From: Rhizobium sp. Q54
GTDB lineage: Bacteria > Pseudomonadota > Alphaproteobacteria > SMXS01
Reading direction: 5' to 3'
NCBI GenBank assembly: GCA_945872035.1
Contig: CAMBYA010000034.1
Span: 1 to 12,510, forward strand
Length of the DNA: 12,510 bases
Within the stretch, counting starts at the first letter, position 1. Every line of letters starts with the position of its first letter. The position numbers and the translations under genes were made by a program. The notes below the pieces were generated by a model. It did no database searches. It was not told the origin of the DNA and saw nothing but the letters and a program-made list of their open reading frames with translations. Below are positions 1,795 to 12,510 of the stretch, in pieces.

Positions 1795-1961
1795 CGGGGC
1801 GCCGGAGCCAGATATCAAACCATCGCAATATCAGTTGCGCAAGTATAGGAATACTATGAAGTAGTATTTATATCAGCGTCTTGCCAGACCATCCTGATTT
1901 AAAGCCTGAATGAATGAAACGAAAATCACCATCGCAATAGCTATGGCGGTGGCGTTCTTAA
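1795..1961. other. AT-rich intergenic stretch with a 7-bp inverted repeat
   Basis: No credible gene is seen here. Base composition drops sharply from the GC-rich gene before it. A perfect inverted repeat AATACTA-TGAAG-TAGTATT spans 1850-1868, 56 bases after the radical SAM stop. It could act as a weak transcript-end hairpin, but it is AT-only and lacks a T tract. The 12-mer ACCATCGCAATA occurs twice in the stretch (about 1819 and 1928), with no obvious purpose. Confidence 0.4.
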
Positions 1962-2057
1962 TACGGTGACAGTGCATTTAATTCGGCATCGACTTCGGCG
2001 CACACTTGCCGGGTGTGAGCGCGCTGCGGACTCTCAATTTAGTGCACCATCACCGTA
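1962..2057 (+). mobile_element. 96-bp palindromic element, copy 1 (MITE/REP-like)
   Basis: Three 96-bp copies of this element occur in the window (1962-2057, 2625-2720 and, inverted, 12311-12406). The ends are imperfect inverted repeats of about 22 bp beginning TACGGTGACAGTGCATT, and the middle carries the small hairpin CACAC-N7-GTGTG. There is no coding capacity. It is shaped like a non-autonomous element moved in trans, or a REP-type hairpin. The TA at both tips could be a target duplication as made by Tc1/mariner/IS630-type transposases, which is inference. Confidence 0.8.
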
Positions 2058-2074
2058 ACGTGCCGCAGCGCGAG

Positions 2075-2097
2075 CCGCTTTCGACCCATTGCGTCAG
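2075..2097 (-). repeat. Half copy of the AATGGGTCG-core repeat
   Basis: Read on the minus strand this is TGACGCAATGGGTCGAAAGCGG, the core shared with the 53-bp palindromes elsewhere in the window, with the middle deleted so that AATGGGTCG joins directly to AAAGCGG. It lies just after the stop of the membrane-protein gene, the same relative position the repeat takes next to genes in the 9.5-11.9 kb array. Confidence 0.55.
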
Positions 2098-2450
2098 ATC
2101 TTGTTCGGAGGTTCGGGAAATAGGTTCAGTAGAAAAATAACACCGAGGCCGACGGCGAGGACGCCGCCCCCTCCCATAGCGCCATAGATCGGCCATGGTA
2201 GTAAATCGAGTTGGGTATTTACTACCCATAGATTAAACATAAGCCCTCCGCATGCGAGCAATACAAATCCAGCAGCACCCGAATGGAATTTAGATATCTG
2301 CTCGCTTCGCTTTATTGTGGCCAACAATAATATCCAACATCCTATAAAATGCAGGGGGAGCAAATAGGGCCTGTATGTACTAAAAAAGAAAAGAATAAAC
2401 ATGAGCGAAAATCTGCCAAAGAATTGTTTTCCCGTCATTAATTGCCCCAT
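2094..2450 (-). CDS. Small four-helix membrane protein, unknown function
   Basis: I do not recognise the family. From the ATG at 2450 the product has 118 residues. Hydrophobic segments lie at about residues 15-25, 31-46, 58-77 and 90-111, so a four-helix inner-membrane protein is likely, with a charged loop (KRSEQISKFH) after the second helix. An in-frame GTG at 2540 would add 30 residues, but that extension lies inside a dispersed repeat and is unlikely to be coding. A second ATG at 2438 is a possible start: AAGGGA sits directly before the 2450 ATG, better placed to serve the 2438 one. The gene is clearly lower in GC than the neighbours and stands alone between two repeats and between two copies of the 96-bp element, which suggests acquired DNA. 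Confidence 0.6.
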   Translation of the reverse strand: MGQLMTGKQFFGRFSLMFILFFFSTYRPYLLPLHFIGCWILLLATIKRSEQISKFHSGAAGFVLLACGGLMFNLWVVNTQLDLLPWPIYGAMGGGGVLAVGLGVIFLLNLFPEPPNKI

Positions 2451-2525
2451 TCCCTTGCGCGTGCCCAAGGCCTGCGTGCGCGCCGGTCCGGCTTCAAAGC
2501 AGGTGATCGTACATTGCCACCGTGG

Positions 2526-2565
2526 ACGGCTACTTTCCACCCAACTCGGTCATAGGAGCGGTCCT
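2526..2565 (-). repeat. Dispersed repeat with core TGACCGAGTTGGGTGGAAAG, copy J
   Basis: These 40 bp match the opposite strand of 9548-9587 at about 35 of 40 positions. The shared core on the minus strand is ATGACCGAGTTGGGTGGAAA followed by G-C/T-AGCCGT. The repeat lies just upstream of the membrane-protein gene. Its other copy lies at the 3' end of the SUFU-domain gene. It may be a variant of the same repeat family as the AATGGGTCGGA palindromes, since both end in GGTGGAAAGC. Confidence 0.65.
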
Positions 2566-2579
2566 GACGTGAGATGGCC

Positions 2580-2618
2580 CGAGCCATTGCTGGCGAGGAA
2601 CACGCACAGCGGCGCACC
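2580..2618 (-). pseudogene. 39-bp fragment of a short-chain dehydrogenase gene
   Basis: On the minus strand this encodes GAPLCVFLASNGS, the same as residues 232-244 (GAPLCVFLASHGS) of the dehydrogenase at 6339-7124 except for one residue. The DNA agrees at 36 of 39 positions with 6393-6431. The match stops abruptly on both sides: on the right, seven bases before the second 96-bp element. It is best read as the last scrap of a related dehydrogenase gene, or a copied piece of this one. Confidence 0.6.
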
Positions 2619-2624
2619 TTGTAT

Positions 2625-2720
2625 TACGGTGACAGTGCATTTAATTCGGCATCGACTTCGGCCCACACTTGCCGGGTGTGAGCGCGCTGCGGACTGTCAA
2701 TTTAATGCACTGTCACCGAA
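2625..2720 (+). mobile_element. 96-bp palindromic element, copy 2 (MITE/REP-like)
   Basis: Nearly identical to the copy at 1962-2057 and in the same orientation. The differences are a few bases, mostly near the right end, where TACGGTGA at the left is met by TCACCGAA rather than TCACCGTA. The two direct copies bracket the membrane-protein gene and the dehydrogenase scrap (2058-2624). Confidence 0.8.
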
Positions 2721-2758
2721 ACTTAGCTCTTGCGTGATCCCGATCCTGATAGCGTGAG

Positions 2759-2810
2759 CGTCCGCTTTCCACCGAGGCCGGTTCCACACAGCCTCGACCC
2801 ATTACGGACG
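2759..2810 (-). repeat. 53-bp-type palindromic repeat, copy F
   Basis: On the minus strand it runs CGTCCGTAATGGGTCG... to ...GGTGGAAAGCGGACG, 52 bp, with inverted CGTCCG/CGGACG tips. It matches the copies at 11032-11084 and 11781-11833 in both tips and core. It lies upstream of the HNH-like gene and opposite in orientation to it. Confidence 0.75.
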
Positions 2811-2908
2811 CCCGGCGAGATCGTCCACTATCTGTAGAAGCTGGTGTGCTACTGTTTGACCGCACCGCTGTAGCCGCGCAGCGCAACTTCAGGCATTCAG
2901 CTCGACGC

Positions 2909-3247
2909 ATGGCCCGCAAGCATTCAAGACCTGATCCCTATGGAGACTTGCAGCGCGAGGACGAGGCTCCGGCGGTGGCGGTACCCTGCTGGCTCTGTGG
3001 CCGGCCGACCGGCAAGACCATTGTCTGGCACCATCCCGTGCCTAAGAGCCGGGGCGGGCGCGATGTGGTGCCGATGCACCCCATTTGCCAGCAGACGCTG
3101 ATCGCCAATTTCACCAATTCTGAACTGCAGCGCCATGGGATGGATGTGGACGGCCTGCTGGCCAACCCCAACGTGCGCAAATTCGTCGATTGGGTGGCGA
3201 ACAAGGCTCCGGATTTCACCGCGACCACGGCCAGGAAGCAACGCTGA
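2909..3247 (+). CDS. HNH-endonuclease-like protein lacking expected histidines
   Basis: From the ATG at 2909 the product has 112 residues, starting MARKHSRPDPYG. An upstream ATG at 2846 in the same frame adds 21 residues that do not look like the family, and neither start has a clear ribosome binding site. The fold signature is CWLCG (C27, C30), HHPVPKSRGG (H41, H42), then HPIC (C60), and a C-terminal WVANKAPDF. From memory, small alphaproteobacterial HNH proteins of this type have CHKEIHA or CHRTIHA after HPI, with two histidines. Here that stretch is CQQTLIA, so both are replaced by Gln and Ile. The protein may still bind zinc through its cysteines, but nuclease activity is doubtful. It stands alone between a dispersed repeat and a hairpin. 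Confidence 0.75.
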   Translation: MARKHSRPDPYGDLQREDEAPAVAVPCWLCGRPTGKTIVWHHPVPKSRGGRDVVPMHPICQQTLIANFTNSELQRHGMDVDGLLANPNVRKFVDWVANKAPDFTATTARKQR

Positions 3248-3263
3248 CGCCGGCGTGAGGGCC

Positions 3264-3278
3264 GAGATTGGCAATCTC
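3264..3278. repeat. Short perfect palindrome GAGATTG-G-CAATCTC
   Basis: A 7-bp inverted repeat with a single-base centre, 17 bases after the HNH-like stop. It is too tight for a standard terminator loop. It could be a protein-binding palindrome, but no role can be assigned. Confidence 0.3.
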
Positions 3279-3308
3279 ACTCCGTCCCTCGAGCATTTTC
3301 GCGATAAA

Positions 3309-3355
3309 GCGGGAGGCAGCCCCGTCGTCTGGGGTGGGATCGGACTGCCTCCCGC
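3309..3355. terminator. Strong hairpin between convergent genes
   Basis: An 11-bp perfect stem, GCGGGAGGCAG at 3309-3319 with CTGCCTCCCGC at 3345-3355, has an inner CCCC/GGGG pair at 3320-3323 and 3331-3334. It lies between the stop of the plus-strand HNH-like gene (3247) and the stop of the minus-strand secreted-protein gene (3365), the expected place for a shared transcript-end hairpin. No T tract follows on either strand, so intrinsic termination is not proven. Confidence 0.5.
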
Positions 3356-3364
3356 GCGGCCCGG

Positions 3365-3763
3365 TCAGTCGTCGCGCCAGACGTCGCGGGTGCGGGTTTC
3401 ACCGTTGGCCCAGGTGCGGGTGATGTCGCGGTCGCAGCCCGCGCCCCGGTCGCAACTGGTGTTCACCGTGCGGCTGCCGCCCCGGTTGTTCTCCCAGCCG
3501 CGCTCGGCGTCGTAGTGGCCGGCGCTCCAGTTGCGCTCGACGCCGCGGCTGCCGCCCCGGCCCGAACTGGTCTCGACATACCGGCGCTTGTCCATGTGGC
3601 CCGGCGACCGGTTGTAGCTGAAGCCGCGCTCATAGCCGTGGCCGTGCGGGCCCTGGACGCTGGTGCCGCGCGAGAACGAGCGGGCCTCGGCGCCGCCAGC
3701 CGTGGCGGCCATCAGGCCGATCGCGGTGGCCGCGGCGGCGATGGTGAAGGCGATGGTCTTCAT
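3365..3763 (-). CDS. Secreted small Gly/Arg/Ser-rich protein, unknown function
   Basis: I do not recognise a named family. The 132-residue product starts with a clear Sec signal peptide (MKTIAFTIAAAATAIGLMAATAGGAEA, likely cut after AEA at about residue 27). The mature part is hydrophilic and low in complexity: rich in Gly, Arg, Ser, Tyr and Trp, with repeated RG and aromatic patches, and one close cysteine pair (CDRGAGC) that could form a disulfide in the periplasm. The start is supported by AGGAAAGGA shortly before the ATG. It follows the EF-hand gene by 25 bases on the same strand and is probably in the same transcript. This suggests a periplasmic or surface function linked to the adjacent two-component system, which is inference. 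Confidence 0.75.
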   Translation of the reverse strand: MKTIAFTIAAAATAIGLMAATAGGAEARSFSRGTSVQGPHGHGYERGFSYNRSPGHMDKRRYVETSSGRGGSRGVERNWSAGHYDAERGWENNRGGSRTVNTSCDRGAGCDRDITRTWANGETRTRDVWRDD

Positions 3764-3788
3764 GGGTCTGGTCCTTTCCTCGGGTTGG

Positions 3789-4097
3789 TTACTGGCGGCC
3801 CCAGCGGGCCATGGCGCGGGCGCGGATCTCCTGGCGGGTGATCCTGCCGTCGCCGTCGGCGTCGGCCTCGGAAATGCGGGTCATGCTGGCGTCGGTGAAT
3901 TCCTTCTCCGAGATCGTGCCGTCGCGGTTGGCGTCCATGGCCTTGAAGCGCAGCGTCACCGCCGCCCTGGCCTCGGCGACCTCGATGGCGCCGTTGCCGT
4001 CGCGGTCTACGCCGCGCAGGCCCTCCATGCCCTGCGCCAGGGCGGGCGAAGCGGCGAGGGCGAACAACGCGCCGAGCAGGGGAAGTTTCCAGGTCAT
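3789..4097 (-). CDS. Secreted EF-hand calcium-binding protein
   Basis: A 102-residue protein with a signal peptide ([21 protein letters not shown], cut after ALA at about residue 21) and three EF-hand loops: [12 protein letters not shown] at about 31-42, [12 protein letters not shown] at 55-66 and [12 protein letters not shown] at 79-90. Each has acidic residues at loop positions 1, 3, 5 and 12, so calcium binding is likely in all three. ATGs at 4109 and 4103 are also in frame. I chose 4097 because GGAG lies six bases before it and the signal peptide then has a normal N-terminus. It is transcribed away from the response regulator, and the 135-base gap contains a TGTAAC direct repeat. Small periplasmic EF-hand proteins often sit beside two-component genes in alphaproteobacteria, so co-regulation by the neighbouring pair is plausible. 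Confidence 0.85.
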
Positions 4098-4144
4098 GAG
4101 CATCTCCATGGTGCGGTTGGCATGGGATGAACATGGGCGCGGCG

Positions 4145-4192
4145 TGTAGCCGGCGGATTTCGCGCCGGTGACCATGTGTAACGGCATGTAAC
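4145..4192 (+). promoter_or_regulatory. Putative OmpR-family operator: TGTAAC-N4-TGTAAC
   Basis: TGTAAC at 4177-4182 is repeated exactly at 4187-4192, a 10-bp period, as expected for a winged-helix response-regulator dimer binding a direct repeat on one face of DNA. A related TGTAGC lies at 4145-4150, 32 bp upstream. The site is midway between the divergent EF-hand and response-regulator genes, 41 bases before the response-regulator start. The natural reading is autoregulation plus control of the EF-hand transcript by the adjacent regulator. The link to this particular regulator is inferred from position. Confidence 0.6.
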
Positions 4193-4232
4193 CGGGCTTG
4201 AACGGCAGGGCGCGCGGGCGCAAAACCAGAGC

Positions 4233-4946
4233 ATGGCGGAAAAGCAGTCCATCCTGCTGGTCGAGGACGACCGGGAAATCGCCCTGCTGGTCGCCGGCCT
4301 GCTGGAGCGCGACGGCGATGCGGTGCGCCGGGCGCGCGACGGCGCCGAGGCCGATGCGCTGCTGGCCGAGCGGCCCGCCGACCTGATCCTGCTCGACCTC
4401 ATGCTGCCGGGAGAGGATGGCTTCTCCATCTGCCGCCGGCTGCGCGCCGTGTCCCCGGTGCCCATCGTCATGCTGACGGCCCGCAGCGACGACATCGACC
4501 GCATCGTCGGGCTGGAACTGGGCGCCGACGACTACGTGGCCAAGCCGTTCAACCCGCGCGAGCTGGTCGCCCGCATCCGCGCCGTGCTGCGCCGCTGCGC
4601 GCCGGCCGCCGCCGCGCCGTTGCCGTCGGGCAACCGGCTGCGGTTCGATGCCTTCACCCTGGACGTGGATGCGCGGCGGCTGTTCCGCGGCGACGCGGAG
4701 ATCGAGCTGTCGACCGGCGACTTCGACCTGCTGCTGGTGCTGCTGCGGCATCCGCACCGGGTGCTGTCGCGCGACCAGCTCATGGACCTGATCAAGGGGC
4801 GCACCTGGGAAGCCTTCGACCGGTCCATCGACGTGGCCATGTCGCGCCTGCGCCGCAAGATCGAGCCGGACAGCGCCCATCCGGTGCTGATCCGCACCGT
4901 CCGCAACGCCGGCTACATGCTGGCGGCCACGGTGACGAAAGCCTGA
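4233..4946 (+). CDS. OmpR/PhoB-type response regulator
   Basis: A 237-residue protein of normal family length. The receiver domain at residues 5-120 has the acidic pair D12/D13, phospho-acceptor D55 ([11 protein letters not shown]), T82 and K104 (KPFNPREL). The C-terminal winged-helix DNA-binding domain, about 135-232, has the usual [20 protein letters not shown], a recognition helix in [14 protein letters not shown] and the wing [10 protein letters not shown]. All key residues are present, so it should be phosphorylated by the kinase encoded next and bind direct-repeat DNA. The ATG at 4233 has only a weak ribosome binding site. Its TGA overlaps the kinase ATG by one base, so the two are translationally coupled. 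The signal cannot be read from the sequence. Confidence 0.93.
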
Positions 4947-6292
4947 TGCGCGGGCTGGTGTTCCAGATCGGCCTGCTGCTGGCCCTGTCGCTCGCCGCGC
5001 TCACATCTGTCCTGGGCGGGCTGGGCTATCTGCAGGCGCGCGGCAACGGGCTGGCGGGCGGGGTGCTGCTGCCGCCCGCGCGGCAGCTGGCCGCCATGGT
5101 CGGGCAGATCGAGGCGGCGCCGCCCGGCCGGCTTCCCGGCCTGCTCGCCGCCTTTACCTCCCGCAGCCAGACTGTGTTCGTCGTGACCACGCCGCCCGAG
5201 CCGGGCCGGGACGTGCGGATGCCCGGCCTGCGGCTGGCGTTGGCGTCCTACCGCCGGGCGCTCGACGGCCGGGCGGTGAGCGTCTCCGTCGAGGGCGGCG
5301 AGGGCGACGAACCTCGCCTGATACGCCGCCGCGACCGGTTCTGGCTGGCCAACCCGCTGCGCCTCGCCATCGGCCTGAAGGATGGGCGCACGGCGATCGT
5401 CGAGGTGCGCGGCTGGCGCGCCGGCCAGTTCGACGGATTGCGGCTGTCGATGATCGCGCTGGCCGCGGCCATCGTCATCGGCGCGGCCGCCCTGTTCCTG
5501 TTGCTGCGCCAGCTCGGGCCGCTGCGGCGGCTGGCGGGCGCCGTCGACCGGTTCGGAGCCAGCGCCGCGCCCGAGACCCTGCCGGAACAGGGCTCGAAGG
5601 AGGTGCGCCAGCTCATCGGCGCGTTCAACCGGCTGCAGGGTCAGGTCGGCGCGCTGGTCGCCGGCCGCTCGCGGATGATGGCGGCCATCGGCCACGACCT
5701 GGGCACCTACCTGACCAGGCTGCGGCTGCGCACCGAATTCATCGAGGATCCGGACCAGCGCCGCAAGGCCATCGACGACATCGCCGGCATGCACGCCATG
5801 ATGACCGACACCCTGACCCTGGCCAAGCTGGACCACGACGCCGAACCCGCCGAGCCGGCCGACCTCGGCGCGCTGCTCCGCGACCGGGCGGACGGGCTGC
5901 CCGACCCGGCGAAGGTGTCGCTGTCCCTGCCGGCCGCGCCCGTCATGGCGCCGGTCCGGCGCACGGCCCTGTCCCGCGCCGTCGACAATCTGATCTCCAA
6001 CGCCCTCAAATATGGCGGCGCGGTCGAGATCACCCTGCGCGCCGTGGGCGGCACGGCCGAGATGCTGTTCGAGGATCGCGGCCCGGGCATCCCGGCGGCC
6101 GAGCGCCAGGCGGTGCTGGAGCCGTTCTACCGCCGCGACGGTGCCCGCAACCTGGACGAACCCGGCTTCGGCCTGGGTCTCGCCATCGTCGCCGACGTGG
6201 TCGCCCGCCATGCTGGCACCATCGCGCTGGAAGACCGGGACGGCGGCGGCCTGCGCGCCCGCGTCCGGCTGCCGCTCGCCGCGAAAAAATAG
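4946..6292 (+). CDS. Sensor histidine kinase of the adjacent response regulator
   Basis: A 448-residue inner-membrane kinase. One transmembrane helix lies at about residues 5-25 and a second at 168-188, enclosing a periplasmic sensor region of about 140 residues with no recognised domain. A HAMP-like segment follows ([18 protein letters not shown], about 188-205). The phospho-acceptor is H250, in [11 protein letters not shown]. The ATPase domain has an N box [12 protein letters not shown] (347-358), G1 EDRGPGIP (376-383) and G2 GFGLGLAIV (407-415). The H box is unusual: the common form in this subgroup is HDLRTPLTRLR, so the Arg and the conserved Pro are Gly and Tyr here. This may shift the kinase-to-phosphatase balance. 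The last codons (AAA AAA TAG) are shared with a terminator for the opposite-strand gene. Confidence 0.92.
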
Positions 6293-6311
6293 GGCGTCCC
6301 GAGGGACGCCC
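6285..6311 (-). terminator. Intrinsic terminator of the minus-strand dehydrogenase
   Basis: The stem GGGCGTCC (6292-6299) and GGACGCCC (6304-6311) has a four-base CGAG loop. Read on the minus strand, the hairpin is followed at once by TATTTTTT, which makes a textbook intrinsic terminator 28 bases after the stop of the dehydrogenase at 6339. On the plus strand no T tract follows, although the hairpin begins at the last base of the kinase stop codon and may still help end that transcript. Confidence 0.85.
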
Positions 6312-6338
6312 CAAGTCTCCCCGTTGAACTGGTTGGCC

Positions 6339-7124
6339 TTACGGCATCAGCTTGCCGCCGTTGAGCATGAAGGTCTGGCCGGTGATGTAGTCCGAGCCGT
6401 GGCTGGCGAGGAACACGCACAGCGGCGCGCCGTGGATCAGCGGATCGCCCAAATAGCGCATGGGCAGCGCCTGCTCCAGGGCGGTGACGAATTCGGGGCG
6501 CGCCTTGCGCCAGTTCTCGAACGCGTCCGAGGCCAGCGTCGGGCTGATGATGTTGACGTTGATGCCGAACTGGCCCCACTCGTTGGCGGCGGTGCGGCTG
6601 ACGGCGCGGATCGCCTCCTTGGCCATGTTGTAGGCGGTGTTGCCGGTGGTGCCCAGGATGCCCGAGGTGGACGAGAAGTTGATGATCTTGCCCCACTTCT
6701 TCGCCTTCATGATCGGGAACACGGCCTGCATCGCCCACAGGCTGGCCATCGCGCCGCTGTTGAAGGTGTAATAGATCTCGGCGTCGGTCGAATCCTCCAC
6801 GCCCACGAACACGGTCGAGCCCTGCGGCTTCTCCTTGGTGCCGAAGCCCTGGGCGTTGCTGACCATGATGTCGACGGTGCCATAGGCCTTCACCGTCTCG
6901 TCGACCATGCGGAACACCTGGTCGCGCTCGGACACGTCCACCACGACCGGAATCGCCTCGCCGCCCTCGTCGCGGATCTGCTTCACCACCTCGTCCACGG
7001 TCGACTTGGTGCGCGAGGCGACGGCCACCCGGGCGCCCTCGCGGCCATAGGCGATGGCGATGGCCTTGCCGATGCCGCGCCCGGCGCCGGTGACGATGGC
7101 GACGTTTCCTTCGAGCTGCTTCAT
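6339..7124 (-). CDS. SDR-family oxidoreductase
   Basis: A classical short-chain dehydrogenase of 261 residues. The cofactor-binding TGAGRGIG is at 12-19. Basic residues after the second strand (ASRTK, R38) suggest preference for NADP(H). The usual NNAG is SNAQG at 89-93. The catalytic serine lies in FSSTSG (about 151-155), with Y165 and K169 in YNMAK. The C-terminus has the usual GSDYITGQTFMLNGG. The stretch FNSGAMASLWAMQAVFPIM, with N122, marks a subgroup that often acts on hydroxy-acyl, alcohol or terpenoid-type substrates; the actual substrate is unknown. It has its own terminator and is divergent from the paralogue pair starting at 7307. A 39-bp near copy of its codons 232-244 lies at 2580-2618. 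Confidence 0.88.
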   Translation of the reverse strand: MKQLEGNVAIVTGAGRGIGKAIAIAYGREGARVAVASRTKSTVDEVVKQIRDEGGEAIPVVVDVSERDQVFRMVDETVKAYGTVDIMVSNAQGFGTKEKPQGSTVFVGVEDSTDAEIYYTFNSGAMASLWAMQAVFPIMKAKKWGKIINFSSTSGILGTTGNTAYNMAKEAIRAVSRTAANEWGQFGINVNIISPTLASDAFENWRKARPEFVTALEQALPMRYLGDPLIHGAPLCVFLASHGSDYITGQTFMLNGGKLMP

Positions 7125-7243
7125 GGGGTGACTTCCGCCTTTCGGGGGACTCGGTGAATTTCAGCGCCAGTGAAGAATCTTGCGTATGTTCGGGGATGAA
7201 CGGGTCCGCCGTCAACGGTCTTTTCACCGGACGTCCCCGTTGC

Positions 7244-7272
7244 GTGACGCGTGTTGCACATGCTCCTATAGT
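7244..7272 (+). promoter_or_regulatory. Possible promoter of the tandem dehydrogenase pair
   Basis: The sequence GTGACG at 7244-7249 and TATAGT at 7267-7272 are separated by 17 bases and end 34 bases before the ATG at 7307. They resemble a sigma-70 type -35 and -10. An alternative -35 (TTGCAC at 7254) is too close to the same -10. It is the best candidate in the 182-base divergent gap, but was picked by eye only. Confidence 0.35.
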
Positions 7273-7306
7273 CGGACGGCGCACGGGGGCGCCTTGGGGA
7301 GGAAAC

Positions 7307-8077
7307 ATGGACAGGGTTAAGGGCAAGATCGCGCTGGTCACCGGCGGCGCTGACGGCATCGGCGCGGCGACGGCGCGCCTGCTGGCGGCCGAGGGCGCGA
7401 CCGTCGTGGTCACCGACATCAACGAGGCGGGCGCGAAGGCGCTGGGCGCGGAGCTCGGCGGCATGGGCATCGCGCACGACGCCGGCAGCGAGGCCGACTG
7501 GCACGCCGCCATCGCGGCGGTCAAGGACCGCTACGGCCGGCTCGACGTGCTGGTCAACAACGCCGGCATCGGCGCCGGCATCGGCGACATCGAGCACCAG
7601 ACGCTCGAGGACTACCACAAGGTCATGCGGGTGACCTGCGACAGCGTGTTCATCGGCTCCAAATGCGCCATCGAGCTGATGAAGGGCCAGGGTAGTGCGA
7701 TGGCGGGCGGCGGCTCCATCGTCAACGTGTCGTCGATTCACGGCATCAAGGCGGCCGCCCACGAGGCGGCCTATTCGGCGGCCAAGGGCGCGGTGCGGCT
7801 GCTGACCAAGTCGGTGGCGCTCCACTGCGCCCGCAACGGCTACCGGATCCGCTCCAACTCGGTGCATCCGGGCTATATCCTGACCACCCAGATGATCGCG
7901 TGGATGGAGCGCGCCGACAACAGCGCCGATGTCAGGGCCGCGCTGCTCACCCAGCATCCCATCGGCTTCCTCGGCCAGCCCGAGGACATCGCCAACGGCA
8001 TCCTCTACCTGGCCAGCGAGGAAAGCCGGTTCATGACCGGATCCGAGCTGGTGATCGACGGCGGCTACACGCTGTAG
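7307..8077 (+). CDS. SDR-family oxidoreductase, first of a tandem pair (Thr in the tetrad)
   Basis: A 256-residue classical short-chain dehydrogenase. The ATG at 7307 is preceded by GGGGAGGAA, which decides the start over upstream in-frame codons. TGGADGIG is at 12-19, D37 (TDIN) indicates NAD(H), NNAG is at 84-87, the catalytic serine is in VSSIHG (141-146), with Y156 and K160 in YSAAK. The C-terminal SRFMTGSELVIDGGYTL resembles cyclopentanol and 3beta/17beta-hydroxysteroid dehydrogenases, so oxidation of a cyclic or steroid-like alcohol is a fair guess. The fourth catalytic position, normally Asn in a VNLxSVF context, is Thr here (RVTCDSVF, T110), whereas the twin gene keeps Asn. The next gene follows after 11 bases, and the two are surely one operon. 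Confidence 0.9.
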   Translation: MDRVKGKIALVTGGADGIGAATARLLAAEGATVVVTDINEAGAKALGAELGGMGIAHDAGSEADWHAAIAAVKDRYGRLDVLVNNAGIGAGIGDIEHQTLEDYHKVMRVTCDSVFIGSKCAIELMKGQGSAMAGGGSIVNVSSIHGIKAAAHEAAYSAAKGAVRLLTKSVALHCARNGYRIRSNSVHPGYILTTQMIAWMERADNSADVRAALLTQHPIGFLGQPEDIANGILYLASEESRFMTGSELVIDGGYTL

Positions 8078-8088
8078 GGGAGAAGACC

Positions 8089-8841
8089 ATGGGCAGGGTC
8101 GAGGGCAGGATCGCGCTGGTCACCGGCGGCGCCGACGGCATCGGCGAGGCGGCCGCCCGGCTGCTGGCGGCCGAGGGCGCGACGGTCGTCGTCACCGATA
8201 TCAATGAGGAAGGCGCGGCGGCGCTGGGCGACTCGCTCGGTGGGCTGGGCCTCGCCCACGACGCCACCAGCGAGGACAGCTGGCGGCAGGTCGCGGACAC
8301 GGTGCGCGGCCGCTTCGGGCGGCTGGACGTACTGGTCAACAATGTCGGCGGCGGCCTGCCCGACGGCAACATCGAGCAGCGCACGCTGGACGACTATCAC
8401 ACGGTGATGCGCCGGAACCTGGACAGCGTGTTCATCGGCTGCAAGCTGGGCATCGAGCTGATGAAGGGCGCGGGAGGCTCGATCGTCAACCTGTCCTCGG
8501 TCCACGGCATCCGCGCCGCGCCGCACGAGGCGGGCTATTCGGCGTCGAAGGGCGGCGTCCGGCTGCTGACCAAGTCGGTGGCGCTGCACTGCGCCCGCGC
8601 CGGCTACCGCATCCGGGTGAACTCGGTGCATCCCGGCTACATCCTGACCGGCCGGATGAAGGCCTGGGTCGCGCGCAGCCACAACGGCCCGGACCTGCTG
8701 GCCTCGCTGGTCGCCCAGCACCCCATCGGCTTCCTCGGCGAGCCCGAGGACGTGGCCGGCGCCATCCTCTACCTGGCCAGCGACGAAAGCCGGTTCATGA
8801 CCGGGTCCGAGCTGGTGATCGACGGCGGGTTCACGCTTTAA
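8089..8841 (+). CDS. SDR-family oxidoreductase, second of the tandem pair
   Basis: A 250-residue close paralogue of the preceding protein; long blocks such as LLAAEGATVVVTDINE, LLTKSVALHCAR and SRFMTGSELVIDGG are the same. TGGADGIG is at 12-19 with D37 for NAD(H), N110 in RRNLDSVF, serine in LSSVHG, and Y150 and K154 in YSASK. All four tetrad residues are therefore present, unlike in its twin. The NNAG motif is NNVG (84-87). A six-residue insertion in the twin (around 130-135) accounts for most of the length difference. AGGGGAGA before the ATG supports the start. The pair probably arose by local duplication and diverged in substrate. Nested palindromes follow the stop. Confidence 0.92.
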   Translation: MGRVEGRIALVTGGADGIGEAAARLLAAEGATVVVTDINEEGAAALGDSLGGLGLAHDATSEDSWRQVADTVRGRFGRLDVLVNNVGGGLPDGNIEQRTLDDYHTVMRRNLDSVFIGCKLGIELMKGAGGSIVNLSSVHGIRAAPHEAGYSASKGGVRLLTKSVALHCARAGYRIRVNSVHPGYILTGRMKAWVARSHNGPDLLASLVAQHPIGFLGEPEDVAGAILYLASDESRFMTGSELVIDGGFTL

Positions 8842-8872
8842 ACTATTGAAATCAATAAATTACTGTTATCCC

Positions 8873-8940
8873 GGCGAAGGCCGGGACCCAGAACGGGGAA
8901 GGGACTGAGCCCTGTGATCCCCTGGGTCCCGGCTTTCGCC
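8873..8940. repeat. Dispersed alphaproteobacterial palindrome (CCCGGCGAAGGCCGGG type)
   Basis: The left arm at 8873-8891 (GGCGAAGGCCGGGACCCAG) pairs with the right arm at 8922-8940 at 18 of 19 positions around a 30-base loop. This kind of intergenic palindrome is scattered in many alphaproteobacterial genomes. It starts 31 bases after the stop of the second dehydrogenase, so it may also end or protect that transcript. Confidence 0.75.
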
Positions 8941-8954
8941 CACAGGCGTCAACT

Positions 8955-8970
8955 GAGCGTTCGCACGCTC
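8955..8970. repeat. Small hairpin GAGCGT-TCGC-ACGCTC
   Basis: A perfect 6-bp stem with a TCGC tetraloop between the two larger palindromic blocks. It has no T tract. It may be a fragment of another dispersed repeat. Confidence 0.4.
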
Positions 8971-8977
8971 TGAAGTT

Positions 8978-9110
8978 GTCATCCCCGACGCCGGTCGAGC
9001 CCGCGAACCGGCAGGTTCGCGGCTGCGAGACTTGCGATCGGGGACCCATCTCTCCACGCGATAGTTGCGAGTCCCGGGTCGGGATGGGTCCCCGCGCGCG
9101 CGGGGATGAC
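8978..9110. repeat. Nested palindrome block bounded by GTCATCCCC and GGGGATGAC
   Basis: The outer arms are GTCATCCCC (8978-8986) and GGGGATGAC (9102-9110). Inside are three further perfect stems: CCGCGAACC/GGTTCGCGG (9001-9009 and 9014-9022, four-base loop), GGGGACCCATC/GATGGGTCCCC (9040-9050 and 9083-9093) and CCCCGCGC/GCGCGGGG (9090-9105). It looks like a dispersed GTCATCCCC...GGGGATGAC repeat into which other palindromes have inserted. No gene is seen between 8842 and 9118. Confidence 0.7.
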
Positions 9111-9118
9111 GGCATATC

Positions 9119-9451
9119 TTAAATCACGCCCTTGTCCCTCGGTGCCGCGATCTCCTCGTCGCTCAACCCCAGCAACCCCTGGAACACGCTCTCATTATCC
9201 GACGCCAGCGGCTTGCCCGCCCAGTCGATGGCGCCGGGCGTGCCCGTCAGCCTCGGCATGACATTGGCCATGTCGGCGATCCTCGTGGGCACCATGGCGA
9301 TGTTCCCCCGCGCGGCGTATTGCGGGTCGTCGAAGATCTCATCGATGGCATAGACCGGGCCGCACGGCACCTGGGCGTCGGCACATGTCCCCAGCACCTC
9401 GGCAACCGATGGGTCTGTCGGGATGCCTGGTATGCTTGGCGGACCGTCCGC
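9119..9451 (-). pseudogene. CaiB/BaiF family CoA-transferase, 3' remnant
   Basis: About 100 C-terminal residues of a CoA-transferase family III protein are left out of the usual 380-400. The identifying segment is DAQVPCGPVYAIDEIFDDPQYAARGNI, followed by the usual PRLTGTPGAIDWAGKPLASDNESVFQGLLGLSDEEI and the stop at 9119. Family members move CoA between acyl-CoA and free acids. Homology can be followed upstream to about 9415, where it gives way to dispersed-repeat DNA. The in-frame ATG at 9454 lies inside that repeat, so any product would be a non-functional fragment. The gene appears to have been cut off when the repeat and small-gene region formed. Its GC content matches the backbone, not the array. 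Confidence 0.8.
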
Positions 9452-9504
9452 CATCGACCCATTGTCGCCGTTCGGACCGATTGCCGGCGTTTCCGAAAGC
9501 GGAC
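9446..9504. repeat. Palindromic repeat copy H (GTCCGC ... GCGGAC)
   Basis: A 59-bp block with GTCCGC and GCGGAC tips contains CGACCCATTG, the reverse of the CAATGGGTCG core. It marks the exact border between the CoA-transferase remnant and the small-gene array. Confidence 0.6.
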
Positions 9505-9523
9505 ATTGAACGTCAGGTGGCGG

Positions 9524-9592
9524 AACGTCCGCTCTGGAGCACCGGCCAGGACTGCCGCCATGACCGAGTTGGGTGGAAAGCAGCCGTTAAGC
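9524..9592. repeat. Palindromic repeat copy I at the 3' end of the SUFU gene
   Basis: It starts AACGTCCGC like the 53-bp repeats, then carries the second core (TGACCGAGTTGGGTGGAAAG, shared with 2526-2565) and ends GCAGCCGTTAAGC. The terminal GTTAAGC fits the GTTRRRY box of an attC core, and its reverse GCTTAAC contains the stop codon of the SUFU-domain gene. The left tip (GCGGAAC) does not fit the partner box RYYYAAC. Confidence 0.55.
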
Positions 9593-10150
9593 GACGGCCT
9601 CGCGGTCAAGATTGAAGATGTCGATCTGTCTCTGTTCAAACAGGTCGGTCAGCGCGGCTACTCCGTTTTCGTAGGCAAAGCGCCGCTCGCTTTCCGAGAC
9701 AGGAACCATCATCAGCCACGCTATTTTCAACGCTGAATCATCCAGGGTTTGGGGACCATCCGCCCACAAAAATGGGTCGGTCAACAGCACGTGCGGCACA
9801 CCCGTCGACCTGTAGAGGCTGATAACGTTTACATGGATCGAGTCAGGTCGGGTTTGCACACCGTCTTTGAAGGCATTGAAAGCGCAAGTCGCCGCTATGT
9901 TCGGCGCGGCTATGAAGGATCGTGGGAAAGCACCAACGAGCTCTATCCGCACCTGCCCTAAACCCAGGTCATGATCGGAAAGCCCAACCGTTCCGACGCC
10001 AACACACCCTTCCACCGGTGTATCGTTACATGACGCCACATCAATGTGATGCAGTTCTGGTTTATCCCAATGACGAAAAACTTTGGGTTTCGCTCCCCAC
10101 GTCCGAGCGAGTTCTCTTGCGGCTGCCTTAGCGTTGGATGAGGGGTCCAT
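9587..10150 (-). CDS. SUFU-domain (suppressor of fused-like) protein
   Basis: A 187-residue protein. The C-terminal half carries the bacterial SUFU-domain pattern: VLLTDPFLW (121-129), then LKIAWLMMVPVSESERRFAYENGVAALTDLFE (141-172) and IDIFNLDREAV (176-186), matching the family's PI..sE..f....G...L...F.....dv..l.R. Bacterial SUFU proteins are predicted immunity proteins of polymorphic toxin systems, where they bind and neutralise a toxin. No toxin is present in the window, so an orphan immunity gene or a domesticated copy are both possible. The ATG at 10150 has no clear ribosome binding site. The stop codon TAA lies inside the repeat tip GCTTAAC. GC is clearly lower than in the backbone, and the gene stands alone between repeats at 9524 and 10176. 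Confidence 0.8.
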   Translation of the reverse strand: MDPSSNAKAAARELARTWGAKPKVFRHWDKPELHHIDVASCNDTPVEGCVGVGTVGLSDHDLGLGQVRIELVGAFPRSFIAAPNIAATCAFNAFKDGVQTRPDSIHVNVISLYRSTGVPHVLLTDPFLWADGPQTLDDSALKIAWLMMVPVSESERRFAYENGVAALTDLFEQRQIDIFNLDREAVA

Positions 10151-10175
10151 TCACACATTTTGGGTGGGTGTCCGA

Positions 10176-10242
10176 ATTTCCGCAATGGGTCGGATTCAGC
10201 CTGGCTGTTCATGGCGAGCAAGACACCGCTTTAGGTTAAGCG
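10176..10242 (+). repeat. Palindromic repeat copy E between SUFU gene and its neighbour
   Basis: The core CCGCAATGGGTCGGATTC (10180-10197) and AGCCTGGCTGTTCATGG match the 53-bp copies well, but the tips (ATTTCCGC and CAAGACA) have decayed. Further right is GGTTAAGC (10235-10242), whose reverse GCTTAAC contains the stop codon of the 159-residue gene, the same arrangement as at the SUFU gene. Confidence 0.65.
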
Positions 10243-10715
10243 AATGACGGTCCGCCCAACTCTTCCGACAGTTTGCTAAGGCGTTCCAATTCCCCAATCC
10301 AACCGTTCGACCATCCGTTTCCCGCTCCGGAGAAATCGAGGCTAAGCTCCTCGCGATGCAATTGAATCGCATCGCGCAGTCTCTCGGCGATTGCGCCCAA
10401 GGCAATGTTCATTGGCCTCCGAGATCGTTCCTGCCTCAGCGCCTCAAATAAAATGGCATACGCCACCGGGCCGATCCCGCTGTAGGACTCCAATGCGCTC
10501 ATTAAGGCTGCTTCATAATCAGCACGTATACGCTCACGCTCTGAGACATTCGTTTCGTCATACAGCGCGCCAAGCAATGCTGCCAAATCAGTATTTCCCG
10601 GTGCAAGCGAGCGCACGGGGAGGTAGGCATATTCGGGTTTTCCGATGAGCAGCCCACATAAATCTCCAGCTGCAAGCGCGCATGTAACAATCTGGCTAGG
10701 CTGCCGGTCCATCAT
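10236..10715 (-). CDS. Hypothetical protein, 159 residues
   Basis: I do not recognise this protein. From the ATG at 10715 (a second ATG follows at once) it has 159 residues, no signal peptide and no transmembrane helix. It appears soluble and mostly helical, with acidic and Leu/Ala-rich stretches (ISO-type helices such as ERLRDAIQLHREELSLD and ELERLSKLSEELG near the C-terminus). No ribosome binding site is apparent. The codon use is lower in GC than the backbone, and its stop lies in a GCTTAAC repeat tip. The position in the array, beside a predicted immunity-type gene, is the only hint of function. Confidence 0.55.
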   Translation of the reverse strand: MMDRQPSQIVTCALAAGDLCGLLIGKPEYAYLPVRSLAPGNTDLAALLGALYDETNVSERERIRADYEAALMSALESYSGIGPVAYAILFEALRQERSRRPMNIALGAIAERLRDAIQLHREELSLDFSGAGNGWSNGWIGELERLSKLSEELGGPSFA

Positions 10716-10739
10716 ACGCAGATGCTGCCTTCATGCTGG

Positions 10740-10776
10740 AACGTCCGCAATGGGTCGGATCGAGAACGGTCGTTCT
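10740..10776 (+). repeat. Palindromic repeat copy D (left half, with new hairpin)
   Basis: AACGTCCGCAATGGGTCGGA at 10740-10759 matches the left half of the 53-bp repeat exactly. The right half is replaced by AGAACG-GT-CGTTCT, a short hairpin, so this copy is truncated or rearranged. It separates the 159-residue gene from the two-helix membrane gene. Confidence 0.65.
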
Positions 10777-10794
10777 GGATTGCTGCATGCGGGG

Positions 10795-11007
10795 TCAGAA
10801 AAGGATCGAAAGCGCAATCAGACCTGGCGCGAGGCCGGGAAGACCAAATATCAGAAAAACCTTCAGCCATTTGGTGGCCGGGTCAGCGTGGGCTTCCTCG
10901 CTAAGCCAGAATAGCCGAATGCCATGATAGGCGAACATCGCAAGCGCGCCGACGCTTGCAAGCCCCATCAGCGCAAAAACCGCAATTAGCAGCATCACAA
11001 GCAGCAT
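10795..11007 (-). CDS. Small two-helix membrane protein, unknown function
   Basis: From the ATG at 11007 the product has 70 residues, and an in-frame TTG at 11013 would add two. One hydrophobic helix covers about residues 2-28 and a second about 48-70, joined by a polar loop (HGIRLFWLSEEAHADPATKWLK). The stop follows the second helix directly, so the C-terminus sits at the membrane. No family is recognised and no good ribosome binding site is seen. It could be a small regulator, immunity-type or stress membrane protein. Length and composition also fit a chance open frame, but the two well-formed helices and the place between repeats favour a real gene. Confidence 0.55.
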   Translation of the reverse strand: MLLVMLLIAVFALMGLASVGALAMFAYHGIRLFWLSEEAHADPATKWLKVFLIFGLPGLAPGLIALSILF

Positions 11008-11031
11008 GATCAAAGCTTACAGGCAGCGCGA

Positions 11032-11084
11032 ACGTCTGCAATGGGTCGGATTCTGCCTGGCGGTTGAGGGTGGAAAGCGGACGT
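11032..11084 (+). repeat. 53-bp palindromic repeat, complete copy C
   Basis: It runs ACGTCTGCAATGGGTCGGAT... to ...GGTGGAAAGCGGACGT, exactly 53 bp like the copy at 11781-11833, with tips ACGTCTGC/GCGGACGT pairing apart from one G-T. It lies between the two-helix gene and the lipoprotein gene. Confidence 0.8.
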
Positions 11085-11096
11085 CGCACTGCAGAG

Positions 11097-11351
11097 TCAA
11101 TTCGCCATATCCGCTGTAGCGCCAAGCCGGTCTTTCTCGACCCGGATGCATTCAACTTGTCCACGCGTTGGGTGTGCGTCGGTGAGCACGATCATCGGAA
11201 CATCTCGACCCTGCTGCTCCAAACGAACTTTTGGGGAGAGGCCGCAATTCCTCGATATCTCGCCAAATTGCGCGACAGTCAGGCTTGGTCCAAACTCCAC
11301 GTCACAGCCGGCAATCGGCAGAAGTAGCACAAGCGCAGCTGTACGGATCAC
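11097..11351 (-). CDS. Small predicted lipoprotein
   Basis: The product has 84 residues from a GTG at 11351, which has GGAG eight bases before it. The N-terminus MIRTAALVLLLPIAGC is a lipoprotein signal with the lipobox I-A-G-C16, so the mature protein should be lipidated on Cys16 and anchored in a membrane facing the periplasm. The mature part has two further cysteines (36 and 68) that could form a disulfide. No named domain is recognised. It stands between two repeats (11032-11084 and 11430-11463) and is on the same strand as its neighbours. Small envelope lipoproteins of this kind are common accessory genes and include inhibitors of lysozyme and toxins, but no such function can be shown here. 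Confidence 0.65.
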   Translation of the reverse strand: MIRTAALVLLLPIAGCDVEFGPSLTVAQFGEISRNCGLSPKVRLEQQGRDVPMIVLTDAHPTRGQVECIRVEKDRLGATADMAN

Positions 11352-11429
11352 TCCAGCATCTCCACGAACGTCTCAAGCAGACAGAAGCTGTCTTGAGATT
11401 CATTAGGCAAGGCTAATGGCCTCGGCCCA

Positions 11430-11463
11430 GGCCCACAATGGGTCGGATGCAGACCGACCATTG
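11430..11463. repeat. Palindromic repeat copy A, reshaped into a hairpin
   Basis: CAATGGGTCGG at 11436-11446 pairs with CCGACCATTG at 11454-11463 with one bulged G and a seven-base loop, so the repeat core here forms its own hairpin. On the minus strand it begins seven bases after the stop of the 80-residue gene and may end that transcript. The usual GTCCGC tips are missing. Confidence 0.6.
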
Positions 11464-11470
11464 ATGGTTA

Positions 11471-11713
11471 TTATTCAGCAGGAGCGTAAAAGCCCCAGAC
11501 GCCTGCTGACAGTTCTGTCGCCGCGAAGCGGATAGGCTTTTCCTCGGTCCCAATTTCATAAATCCAGAAGGGATGCATTTCGTGTTTGTGTGCTGGGTGA
11601 GGCAGGTTGATCGGGTCGTTTTGGACCCGTCGCCATTTGGTTCCCCAAACCCGAAGGCCACCGATTTTGACGGCGTCACCTTCGAAGCCGATATGCACGT
11701 CCCTCCAGTTCAC
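11471..11713 (-). CDS. Hypothetical protein, 80 residues
   Basis: The product starts from a GTG at 11713 with AGGA seven bases before it. It has 80 residues, no signal peptide and no membrane helix. The sequence is rich in aromatics (six Trp, several Phe and Tyr) and looks like a small all-beta fold: DVHIGFEGDAVKIGGLRVWG, then KWRRVQNDPINLPHP, then FWIYEIG and FAATELSAGVWGFYAP. I do not know the family, though the pattern is well structured and not a chance frame. It stands alone between repeat copies at 11430 and 11781. The role is unknown. Confidence 0.6.
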   Translation of the reverse strand: MNWRDVHIGFEGDAVKIGGLRVWGTKWRRVQNDPINLPHPAHKHEMHPFWIYEIGTEEKPIRFAATELSAGVWGFYAPAE

Positions 11714-11780
11714 TCCGGATTCCTTGTTGCGGCAGATGCCTACCCAACTATGGGGCTATGATCTAACCTCAAGGTGCCTA

Positions 11781-11833
11781 ACGTCCGCAATGGGTCGGAT
11801 TCGGCCTGGCCGTTCACGGTGGCAAGCAGACGT
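11781..11833 (+). repeat. 53-bp palindromic repeat, complete copy B
   Basis: It runs ACGTCCGCAATGGGTCGGAT... to ...GGTGGCAAGCAGACGT. The tips extend to AACGTC/GACGTT (11780-11834). Immediately to the left, GCCTAAC (11775-11781) fits the attC box RYYYAAC; the right flank GTTGTCT does not fit GTTRRRY. It lies between the 80-residue gene and the LprI-like gene, which are transcribed away from it on either side. Confidence 0.8.
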
Positions 11834-11867
11834 TGTCTACTCCACTGAGCCATGCGATCCTCCCGGC

Positions 11868-12278
11868 ATGCGTGTTCTACTTATGCTTACGTTGCTCTCT
11901 GCCAATAGCCTGGGCGACTACGTCCATTTCCAAGTTACCCCCGAGCAGGCTGATGAAATTAGCAGCGCCAAGTACCAGCGTTGCCTGAACGCTTCACTTG
12001 ATAATGCTGAGGCCGTCGAGTGCATGGCAGACGAAAGCCCTCGCCTTGATGTGCTGCTGAATGCCAGTTATCGGACAGCCATTGCTAAAATGCCGAACAG
12101 TCGCTCGCAAATTTTGCTTCGAGACAGCCAGCGGCAATGGCTGAAGGATAAGGATGCGATATGTGAGCAGGAAGTGCAGGCCGTTGGCGACACACCATAC
12201 AACATGGTCGGGGCCCAGTGCGCCATCGACGAGCTAATTCGGCGGATAGCGTGGTTGCAGAACCTTGGACGCAGGTGA
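11868..12278 (+). CDS. LprI-like (DUF1311) secreted protein
   Basis: From the ATG at 11868 the product has 136 residues with a short, weak signal sequence (MRVLLMLTLLSANSLG). The core matches the LprI/DUF1311 family: LNASYRTAIAKM (64-75), then LLRDSQRQWLKDKDAIC (83-99), then a second Cys at 118 and a C-terminal helix with RIAWLQNL. Cysteines at 39, 52, 99 and 118 could form two disulfides, as expected outside the cytoplasm. Mycobacterial LprI is a lysozyme inhibitor; for most bacterial relatives the role is only presumed. Longer in-frame starts back to 11607 overlap the opposite-strand gene and a repeat and are rejected. It is the only plus-strand gene in the array, and the ribosome binding site is weak. 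Confidence 0.8.
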   Translation: MRVLLMLTLLSANSLGDYVHFQVTPEQADEISSAKYQRCLNASLDNAEAVECMADESPRLDVLLNASYRTAIAKMPNSRSQILLRDSQRQWLKDKDAICEQEVQAVGDTPYNMVGAQCAIDELIRRIAWLQNLGRR

Positions 12279-12310
12279 CACTCGCACTAATAGGCGCAAT
12301 CCACTTAGGT

Positions 12311-12406
12311 TACGGTGACAGTGTACTAAATTGACAGTCCGCGGCGCGCTCACACCCTGCAATTGTGGGCCGAAGTCGATGCCGAATTAAATGCACCATC
12401 ACCGTA
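12311..12406 (-). mobile_element. 96-bp palindromic element, copy 3 (inverted)
   Basis: Exactly the same length as the two copies near 2 kb and in opposite orientation. It has TACGGTGA and TCACCGTA at its tips, and CACAC/TGTGG traces of the inner hairpin with a few changes. It lies 32 bases after the LprI-like stop, at the end of the small-gene array, and directly touches the histidine-rich remnant. Confidence 0.8.
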
Positions 12407-12505
12407 ATCTGGATCATGGGCGTGCTGGTGATGGTTGTCATGAATGTGCGCGTGTTCGTGAGCTTGGGCTTTGGCCCTGTACCCATGAGCAACTAATATT
12501 GAAAT
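12407..12505 (-). pseudogene. Possible remnant of a histidine-rich coding region
   Basis: One minus-strand frame (codons from 12505 downward) reads HGYRAKAQAHEHAHIHD then NHHQHAHDPDYGDG, with ten His in about 27 residues. Such stretches mark metal-binding loops of zinc, cobalt and nickel transporters and chaperones. The frame has a stop just before it (12506-12508) and no ATG, GTG or TTG start, and it runs on into the 96-bp element, where it ends at 12350. It is therefore at most debris. A chance His-rich frame in GTG/CAT-repetitive DNA cannot be ruled out. Confidence 0.3.
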
Positions 12506-12510
12506 CTAAC

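Follow-up and report, generated by a model that had tools for sequence, protein, structure and literature searches.

Does a short repeat that stands in the gaps between small genes help to gather those genes, or does it simply settle between them? The question is raised by a 12,510-nucleotide stretch of DNA from Rhizobium sp. Q54 (contig CAMBYA010000034.1, positions 1 to 12,510; hereafter the window), in which each gap of a row of six small genes, at about 9,440 to 12,300, holds one copy of such a repeat. The window is a contig of an incomplete genome (2.38 Mb in 338 contigs, 78% complete). Sequence comparison indicates that the row is probably an array of cassettes with one gene each, moved through site-specific recombination at the repeat, and the array looks like an orphan, partly decayed member of a widespread integron-like cassette system. 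The strongest support comes from the array geometry, the recurrence of units, one pair of units with mapped junctions and a site linked to a recombinase gene; the weakest points are activity, the enzyme of the window's own lineage and generality beyond the GGGTCG repeat family.

A repeat in every gap of a row of small genes

The first-pass annotation of the window described one copy of a 53-bp palindrome in each gap between the six genes. The arrangement was confirmed: AATGGGTCGGA occurs exactly at positions 10184, 10749, 11040, 11437 and 11789, one per gap and all on the forward strand, and with up to 2 mismatches it has 11 matches against 3.5 expected, a number reached by none of 200 shuffles. 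The ends of the window copies do pair, but only two copies of the row are full length and single-strand folds are hardly or not better than those of shuffles (z -1.8 to +0.6). Both arms are kept only at 11031-11084, 11780-11834 and 2757-2813; the copies at 10175 and 10740 retain the left part, the copy at 11428 is degenerate, and the copy at 9529-9585 belongs to a longer subfamily (about 57-59 bp). The repeat is clustered in its own incomplete genome, where four of the six places found at E<=0.001 (the query copy counted) lie in the window.

Structure and distribution of the repeat family

Across genomes, the element is 49-62 bp long; among 134 exact copies, 89 are 49 bp and 31 are 57-62 bp. 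The 49-mer consists of two 24-bp core sites, GTCCGCWAT-GGGTCG-RAAGCSGAC and a weaker second one, which in Brevundimonas ends GGGTGG-AAAGCGGAC; the 59-mer has two clearer core sites with 11 bp between them. Positions 1-6, 10-15 and 43-49 are strongly conserved (278 copies; commonest base 85-100%). Arm pairing in these copies equals the expectation from column composition, a comparison with little power at near-invariant columns. The folding energy of 100 copies was, on average, better than that of letter shuffles, with a mean z of -1.7 on one strand and -1.9 on the other; 43% and 42% of the copies, respectively, lay below z -2.

The exact 15-base core was matched in 17 of 385 genomes of the class. 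In the class scan, single core matches were about as frequent as in the reversed control, and it is the clusters in one orientation that stand out. A two-arm pattern gave at least 120 matches in genome contigs; the genera listed, read from 80 of them, are Brevundimonas, Phenylobacterium, Sphingomonas, Sphingomicrobium, Qipengyuania, Croceibacterium and Altererythrobacter, with a few Massilia, Pseudomonas and Herbaspirillum. In the window's genus, the few copies are clustered, and further clusters were found in two genomes (G003 and G005). The 21-base exact pattern of the window's own repeat had no match in genome contigs or viral contigs, the plasmid collection held no match to the window's repeat, and Rfam at a lax threshold returned four matches, each below its gathering score.

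The repeats form directional arrays of single-gene units

A profile model of the repeat identified 579 copies in 203 non-redundant loci, 11 loci having been left out as the same physical place as another. Neighbouring copies 120-2500 bp apart were overwhelmingly in the same orientation (349 same versus 6 opposite; median gap 496 bp). The genome-contig loci had been chosen for holding an exact copy (at least 120 matches in that scan) and many Brevundimonas loci because clusters were visible in listings; the exact-copy loci were counted apart. The ratio of same to opposite neighbours was 222:4 in the 111 exact-copy loci, 111:1 in the hand-picked clusters, 9:0 in the class hits, 4:1 in the own genus and 3:0 in the window. 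An earlier locus set gave 140 same-oriented neighbours versus 7 opposite, and the reversed-sequence control gave 1 match on 157 loci and none on 19. In Brevundimonas intermedia B-10, one array packs 20 copies into 15 kb.

The units between repeats are typically single genes. One clear open reading frame was present in 246 of 311 units of 150-1300 bp (median 132 residues); 166 of these genes face against the reading direction of the site and 80 face with it. Stop codons abut the site, lying 1 nt from it in 13% and 18%, versus 3%. The Pfam survey, which covered 75 of 234 listed cassette proteins, revealed diverse content: 55 families, the most frequent with 2 members each (ankyrin repeats, hydrolases and LuxR-type regulators). 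PADLOC matched four families with at most 2 members each, and one unit in the window's genus (G003) encodes a GNAT acetyltransferase.

Units recur at different places and probably exchange within the repeat

The first-pass annotation had suggested that the repeat takes part in collecting genes in the manner of a cassette site, and this idea is supported by the recurrence of units in different neighbourhoods. Homologous units at different places were found in 14 pairs, and both ends of the homology lie inside repeats in 11 of them (130 bases inspected per side). The evidence for unit mobility comes mainly from genera other than the window's.

The most informative pair is in the single-contig genome G400, which belongs to the Brevundimonas genus group and in which a 616-bp unit is present in two arrays with different neighbours and 99.7% identity. 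Between the two copies, the left repeats show differences at positions 7-8 and in the flank and are identical from position 9, and the right repeats are identical through position 15 and differ from position 16; therefore, both exchanges fall in positions 9-15, TGGGTCG, which include the core site's 6-bp spacer. The junctions at the two ends of this pair thus lie within the same 7 bases, as the proposal of precise junctions at one place in the repeat had anticipated. The body of the repeat moves with the gene whose stop codon precedes it. A second unit pair (98.7%) agrees at the right end; its left end is uninformative, one copy being the short form.

Units could also be exchanged by ordinary recombination of the RecA type, or by slippage, between short stretches of identical repeat sequence, and the recombinase described below would then be unrelated. 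The junction does lie in the best-conserved 15-bp stretch, where homology-driven exchange would resolve, and the enzyme is missing from many arrays. However, a stretch of 15 bp is short for RecA, the mapped pair does not have its junction in the conserved right arm AGCGGAC, and homology ends also at the core site behind the recombinase gene. We consider this explanation unlikely and site-specific recombination at the repeat the better account.

A small tyrosine recombinase is linked to the core site

A search of 11 genomes for tyrosine recombinases showed that small ones adjoin arrays. The gene for one of them, P0001 (208 residues), ends 1 bp ahead of the first of nine repeats in G400, and relatives of P0001 are present in 18 of 61 Brevundimonas genomes. 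We assessed the DNA behind 23 distinct recombinase 3' ends (the second pieces of three broken genes, L346, L347 and L348, were left out; truncated genes were still included). A core site with at most 4 mismatches lies within 75 bp of 17 of the 23, compared with 51 of 1200 random windows, and 16 of these 17 sites start 32-41 bp behind the recombinase stop codon. At no more than 1 mismatch, the site is found at 12 of the 23 ends versus none of 3600 random windows. By nhmmer, the repeat was detected in 17 of 26 recombinase loci and in none of 19 loci of other PF00589 genes. A further repeat on the same strand occurs within the 1.5-kb flank in 10 of 23 (for example L327, L334, L332 and L345), and in most of the printed flanks a hairpin can be seen by eye between the recombinase stop and the site.

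The core site behind the gene also marks an end of homology. In eight of nine pairs of close-relative recombinases, each more than 80% alike left of the site, identity was 82-98% left of the site and 13-38% right of it; the ninth pair (L336/L340) is identical on both sides. The nine pairs share members and are not all independent.

P0001 is a member of PF00589, and its best NCBIfam match is XerC, far below cut-off. The motif columns expected to be catalytic, which we take to hold the catalytic residues from general knowledge of the family, are invariant or nearly so among 46 homologues. The AlphaFold model comprises a catalytic domain, with the first 24 residues at low confidence and the fold beginning at about residue 28. 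The best Foldseek matches are XerA, Tn1549 Int, XerH and Cre, with template modelling (TM) scores of about 0.5 or less. Judged by the motif columns, PF00589 membership and the Foldseek matches, the protein has the catalytic residues and the fold of a tyrosine recombinase. A core-binding domain ahead of the catalytic domain is given as the rule for simple tyrosine recombinases in PMC8138268; in its predicted structure the 208-residue enzyme appears to be without one.

The enzyme family is large, with 7995 of 8000 scored candidates passing 1e-20. Relatives at 1e-40 were found on 342 of 72,556 plasmid records, which come from many Proteobacteria (for example L351-L353), and 16 of 385 genomes of the class have a match at 1e-30 or better. 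Among six class relatives whose flanks were printed, about 4 show by eye a hairpin behind the stop, as do 2 of 3 plasmid relatives; the sequences are in both cases unlike the Brevundimonas site. Five candidate stretches from relatives contained no minimal recombinase.

As a separate observation, G400 has a second copy of the minimal recombinase gene (C1:1704523-1705146, locus L343), which is 96% identical and has one in-frame TAG.

Many gene starts lie at a near-constant distance from the site

In 610 flanks, read outwards from the site in the direction of the gene, the distance of an ATG from the site was 27 nt in 75, 26 nt in 37 and 28 nt in 22 (134 in total), against a background of 1.6% per offset elsewhere. 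TANNNT lies 12 nt ahead of the ATG in 19 of the 37 flanks with the ATG at 26 and in 6 of the 22 with the ATG at 28. TT precedes GCGGAC (ATT or GTT class) in 104 of the 134 flanks with such a start codon; among 352 flanks that have none at these distances, the number is 162. The first three genes of the window's row follow the rule, with starts at 27, 27 and 26 nt, and genes 4 and 5 break it. These distances fit a putative -35-like TTGCGG at a spacing of 16-18 bp, from which transcription would start at or near the ATG.

The same boxes and the constant start distance could mean that the repeat serves mainly as a promoter or operator and that the arrays are rows of co-regulated genes. The genes, however, face the other way in 80 of the 246 clear units while the sites keep one orientation, the stop side is abutted as well, and units recur elsewhere. 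We regard this possibility as remote; in the cassette reading, each unit would have a promoter of its own.

The array of the window and its surroundings

Among nine window proteins searched with Pfam, SUFU, LprI and the cut CoA-transferase were recognized, and the others had no family over cut-off. A degenerate core site lies at 9438-9464 (reverse strand; nhmmer, 16 bits); it and the copy at 9529-9585 are the two related half-copies of the left edge. The left boundary of the first cassette is the longer-subfamily site at 9529-9585 (forward strand; GTCCGCTCTGGAGC...GGGTGGAAAGCAGCC), which has relatives in G001:C24, G004:C13 and G004:C63. Cassette gene 1 (9587-10150, reverse strand) encodes a SUFU-domain protein of 187 residues (Pfam SUFU, 1.3e-18); its stop codon is 1 nt from its site and its ATG 27 nt from the next one, at 10175-10226 (forward), whose left part is intact by sequence comparison. 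Gene 2 (10236-10715, reverse; 159 residues, no family over cut-off) likewise has its ATG 27 nt from the next site, at 10740-10791 (forward), in which the left half (10740-10761) is exact and the right half eroded. Gene 3 (10795-11007, reverse) encodes a small hydrophobic protein; 26 nt separate its ATG from the next site, and TAAGCT lies 12 nt ahead of the ATG.

The full-length site at 11031-11084 (forward; nhmmer, 41 bits) is followed by gene 4 (11097-11351, reverse), an 84-residue protein that was labelled a putative lipoprotein in the first-pass annotation. An ATG lies 27 nt from the next site here too, but in a different frame. After the degenerate site at 11428-11462 (forward; 16 bits) comes gene 5 (11471-11713, reverse; 80 residues, no family), which falls outside the spacing rule because its start is 69 nt from the next site. 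That site, at 11780-11834 (forward; 42 bits), is full length and carries GCCTAAC on one flank. Gene 6 (11862-12278, forward; 138 residues) runs in the opposite direction and encodes an LprI-like protein (Pfam LprI, 5.6e-12).

At the left edge, the 3' part of a CoA-transferase family III gene (9119-9403, reverse strand; Pfam CoA_transf_3, 8.5e-8) is cut where the array begins. DNA homology to its copies in six same-genus genomes and on the genome's own contig C165 stops at 9399-9403, and beyond the cut the five copies inspected run on as other sequence, mutually alike. The 131-bp gene-less piece at 9450-9580 is found again elsewhere in G001 (L062, 8344-8474) with 92% identity and core sites at both ends.

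Related copies had also been reported around a membrane-protein gene and ahead of another gene in the left part of the window (2075, 2526 and 2759), and these were recovered. The membrane-protein gene (2094-2540, reverse strand) makes up a second small unit, bounded by partial sites at 2074-2093 and about 2526-2545, and a full-length site lies at 2757-2813 (reverse; sequence comparison). Window positions 1919-2804 are missing in G001, and the shared backbone restarts inside the 2757-2813 site; 101-bp elements of a separate family confuse this locus.

The 101-bp element occurs at 1959-2059, 2622-2722 and 12306-12408, with ends like TTACGGTGACAGTGCA...TGCACYRTCACCGTAA; it is also present in G004 and G005 and partly elsewhere, and represents a separate dispersed inverted-repeat family. 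Other features of the window were noted. Positions 2569-2624, within the intergenic unit, are a 56-bp copy (84%) of the 3' part of a downstream gene (6382-6437). A two-component system block at 3340-6280 is present in G004 and absent from G001 at the syntenic place. Two adjacent SDR-type genes (7306-8841) are about 75-84% identical in pieces and have the look of a tandem duplication. An inverted repeat at 8859-8940 has CCCGGCGAAGGCCGGGACC-type arms and is also found in several same-genus loci.

Proposed mechanism

We propose that the core site consists of 9-bp inverted arms round a 6-bp spacer, roughly GTCCGCWAT-GGGTCG-RAAGCGGAC, and is followed by a weaker core whose spacer is often GGGTGG. 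An exchange inside the spacer of the core site would excise or insert one unit, namely the gene with its 5' leader and the body of the repeat behind its stop codon; the junction was seen in one pair, and the enzymatic reaction would be that of a recombinase. Since the spacer is asymmetric, each insertion would be directly repeated, which would account for the uniform orientation of the sites while the genes face either way. In Brevundimonas, the likely enzyme is the 208-residue tyrosine recombinase, apparently reduced to its catalytic domain, at the head of some arrays. Its gene is followed by a hairpin and then by one attI-like core site; the adjacency and the end of homology are seen, and catalysis is presumed. 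The arm of the site often reads TTGCGG, which is -35-like, and combined with a -10-like box in the leader this would place the transcription start at about the ATG, so that each cassette would carry its own promoter; the spacing is observed and promoter activity is predicted. The array of the window looks orphaned because a search of four genomes of the window's genus did not find the recombinase.

If this reading is true, a differently made cassette system would explain the stockpiling of small accessory genes in Alphaproteobacteria. It would pair a minimal enzyme with short double-stranded sites for gene shuffling, offer a rule by which cassette genes could be found where integron software would be expected to miss them, and make cassette formation and exchange testable in a second system.

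The sibling form and evidence against a cassette array

A sibling of the core site, GTCCGCTWT-GAGCGA-NNAGCRGAC, occurs in other lineages and was found in at least 120 stretches in viral contigs. A Pantoea plasmid with a recombinase relative has two exact sites with the GAGCGA spacer (L353, 2023-2046 and 10674-10697), 8.6 kb apart, where none is expected by chance. The orientation of GAGCGA neighbours in viral contigs was mixed, namely 15 same versus 13 opposite at up to 2 mismatches, 15:27 at up to 3 and 34:32 at up to 4, and GAGCGA arrays in viral contigs were dropped as a candidate. The sibling form looks like a dispersed element. Because its neighbours stand at 15:13, directional arrays characterize the GGGTCG family and not every relative.

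These counts bear on the alternative offered by the first-pass annotation, according to which a dispersed hairpin family, akin to miniature inverted-repeat transposable elements (MITEs), settles between ordinary accessory genes and has no part in gathering them. It would be in keeping with the imperfect palindrome formed by the ends, the better average folding of the 100 copies and the undirected sibling repeat. It fits poorly with the 349:6 orientation, the stop codons that abut the site, the recurrence of whole units with different neighbours and the recombinase gene at the head of an array with a core site behind it. This alternative thus appears quite unlikely, and the cassette array is retained.

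Several observations nevertheless weigh against the cassette array, the mixed orientation of the sibling form among them. Plasmid regions of Bosea and Cupriavidus with a recombinase relative had no array of the GGGTCG repeat. Three of the 14 unit pairs (u4/u14, u116/u258 and u253/u272) have one homology end inside the unit, and base-level junctions at both ends come from one unit pair, most pairs being too diverged. The recombinase is absent at 1e-20 from 43 of the 61 Brevundimonas genomes, many array-bearing genomes are without it, and it has no match at 1e-10 in G000, G003, G004 and G005 of the window's genus. The AlphaFold model is of moderate quality (mean predicted local distance difference test score, 69; best TM score about 0.5). 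Where the ATG lies at 27 nt, a strict -10 box is rare (6 of 75), although its A and T are enriched. Finally, complementarity of unit ends (R'/R'') is at chance, with a mean of 2.43 of 7 versus about 2.36 for permuted pairs; one of the seven positions is about 2 standard deviations above the permuted pairs.

Comparison with known systems

Like MITEs and repetitive extragenic palindromes (REPs), the elements are short imperfect palindromes between genes, and the sibling GAGCGA form looks dispersed; unlike them, the GGGTCG family occurs in directional arrays with precise gene units. The Xer/dif system and the pdif modules of Acinetobacter plasmids also have short core sites with inverted arms and a 6-bp spacer, as well as movable gene modules, and XerC is the enzyme's best, though far from sufficient, NCBIfam match. 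The arms and spacer differ from those of dif, however, the enzyme is a dedicated one of 208 residues, and the sites are in one orientation and often doubled.

Integrons are the closest comparison. A passage of PMC9668308 states that they are entirely absent from Alphaproteobacteria, and one in PMC6054849 that they are nearly so (5 in 2879 genomes); the comparison literature also includes PMC8618304 and, for the recombinases, PMC8138268. No description of a GGGTCG cassette system was found in the titles and abstract openings of the papers that searches of the openly licensed PMC literature, preprints excluded, brought up.

The arrays could in principle be true integron cassettes, that is, clusters of attC sites lacking integron-integrases (CALIN) with degenerate attC sites. 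The architecture is the same, a gene with a 3' site, in arrays some of which are headed by an integrase, and the GCCTAAC flank of the 11780 copy and the better average folding than letter shuffles also agree. Yet the attC boxes RYYYAAC and GTTRRRY were present on the left in 2, on the right in 1 and together in none of 253 copies, the arms showed no covariation beyond column composition (with little power at near-invariant columns), the mapped exchange lies in TGGGTCG and not in G/TT, and the unit ends are complementary only at chance. IntI (TIGR02249) was over the NCBIfam cut-off in none of 23 genomes (best 86 of 265 bits), 14 control genomes being alike, and P0001 had no TIGR02249 match at 1e-3; its score against NF040815 (archaeal XerA, described as tyrosine recombinase/integron integrase) was 45 of 220 bits. 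We therefore regard degenerate integron cassettes as very improbable, and a distinct cassette array remains the favoured reading.

That array shares with integrons and CALIN the single-gene cassettes with directly repeated sites (349:6; 246 of 311 units), the site behind the stop codon, orphan arrays without a recombinase and a tyrosine recombinase that heads some of the arrays together with a primary site, the last seen beside 17 of 23 recombinase 3' ends and only in Brevundimonas. The differences are that the recombinase is not IntI, seems to be without a core-binding domain and has a gene that points towards the array; that the sites, conserved in sequence and directly repeated, have a GGGTCG spacer and lack attC boxes; and that each cassette seems to have its own promoter, with the cassettes facing in either direction. 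Evenly balanced, in our estimate, is the broader proposition of a second, independently evolved integron, with a minimal recombinase reduced to its catalytic domain, a primary site behind the recombinase gene and self-promoted single-gene cassettes exchanged at a 6-bp GGGTSG spacer, in the place of integrons in Alphaproteobacteria. Further forms may exist, since recombinase relatives are common on other genomes and plasmids and sibling core sites with another spacer in other bacteria; the single sibling form inspected lacks arrays of one direction, however, and our estimate was lowered on that account. In its working, the system resembles integrons, yet it is not one.

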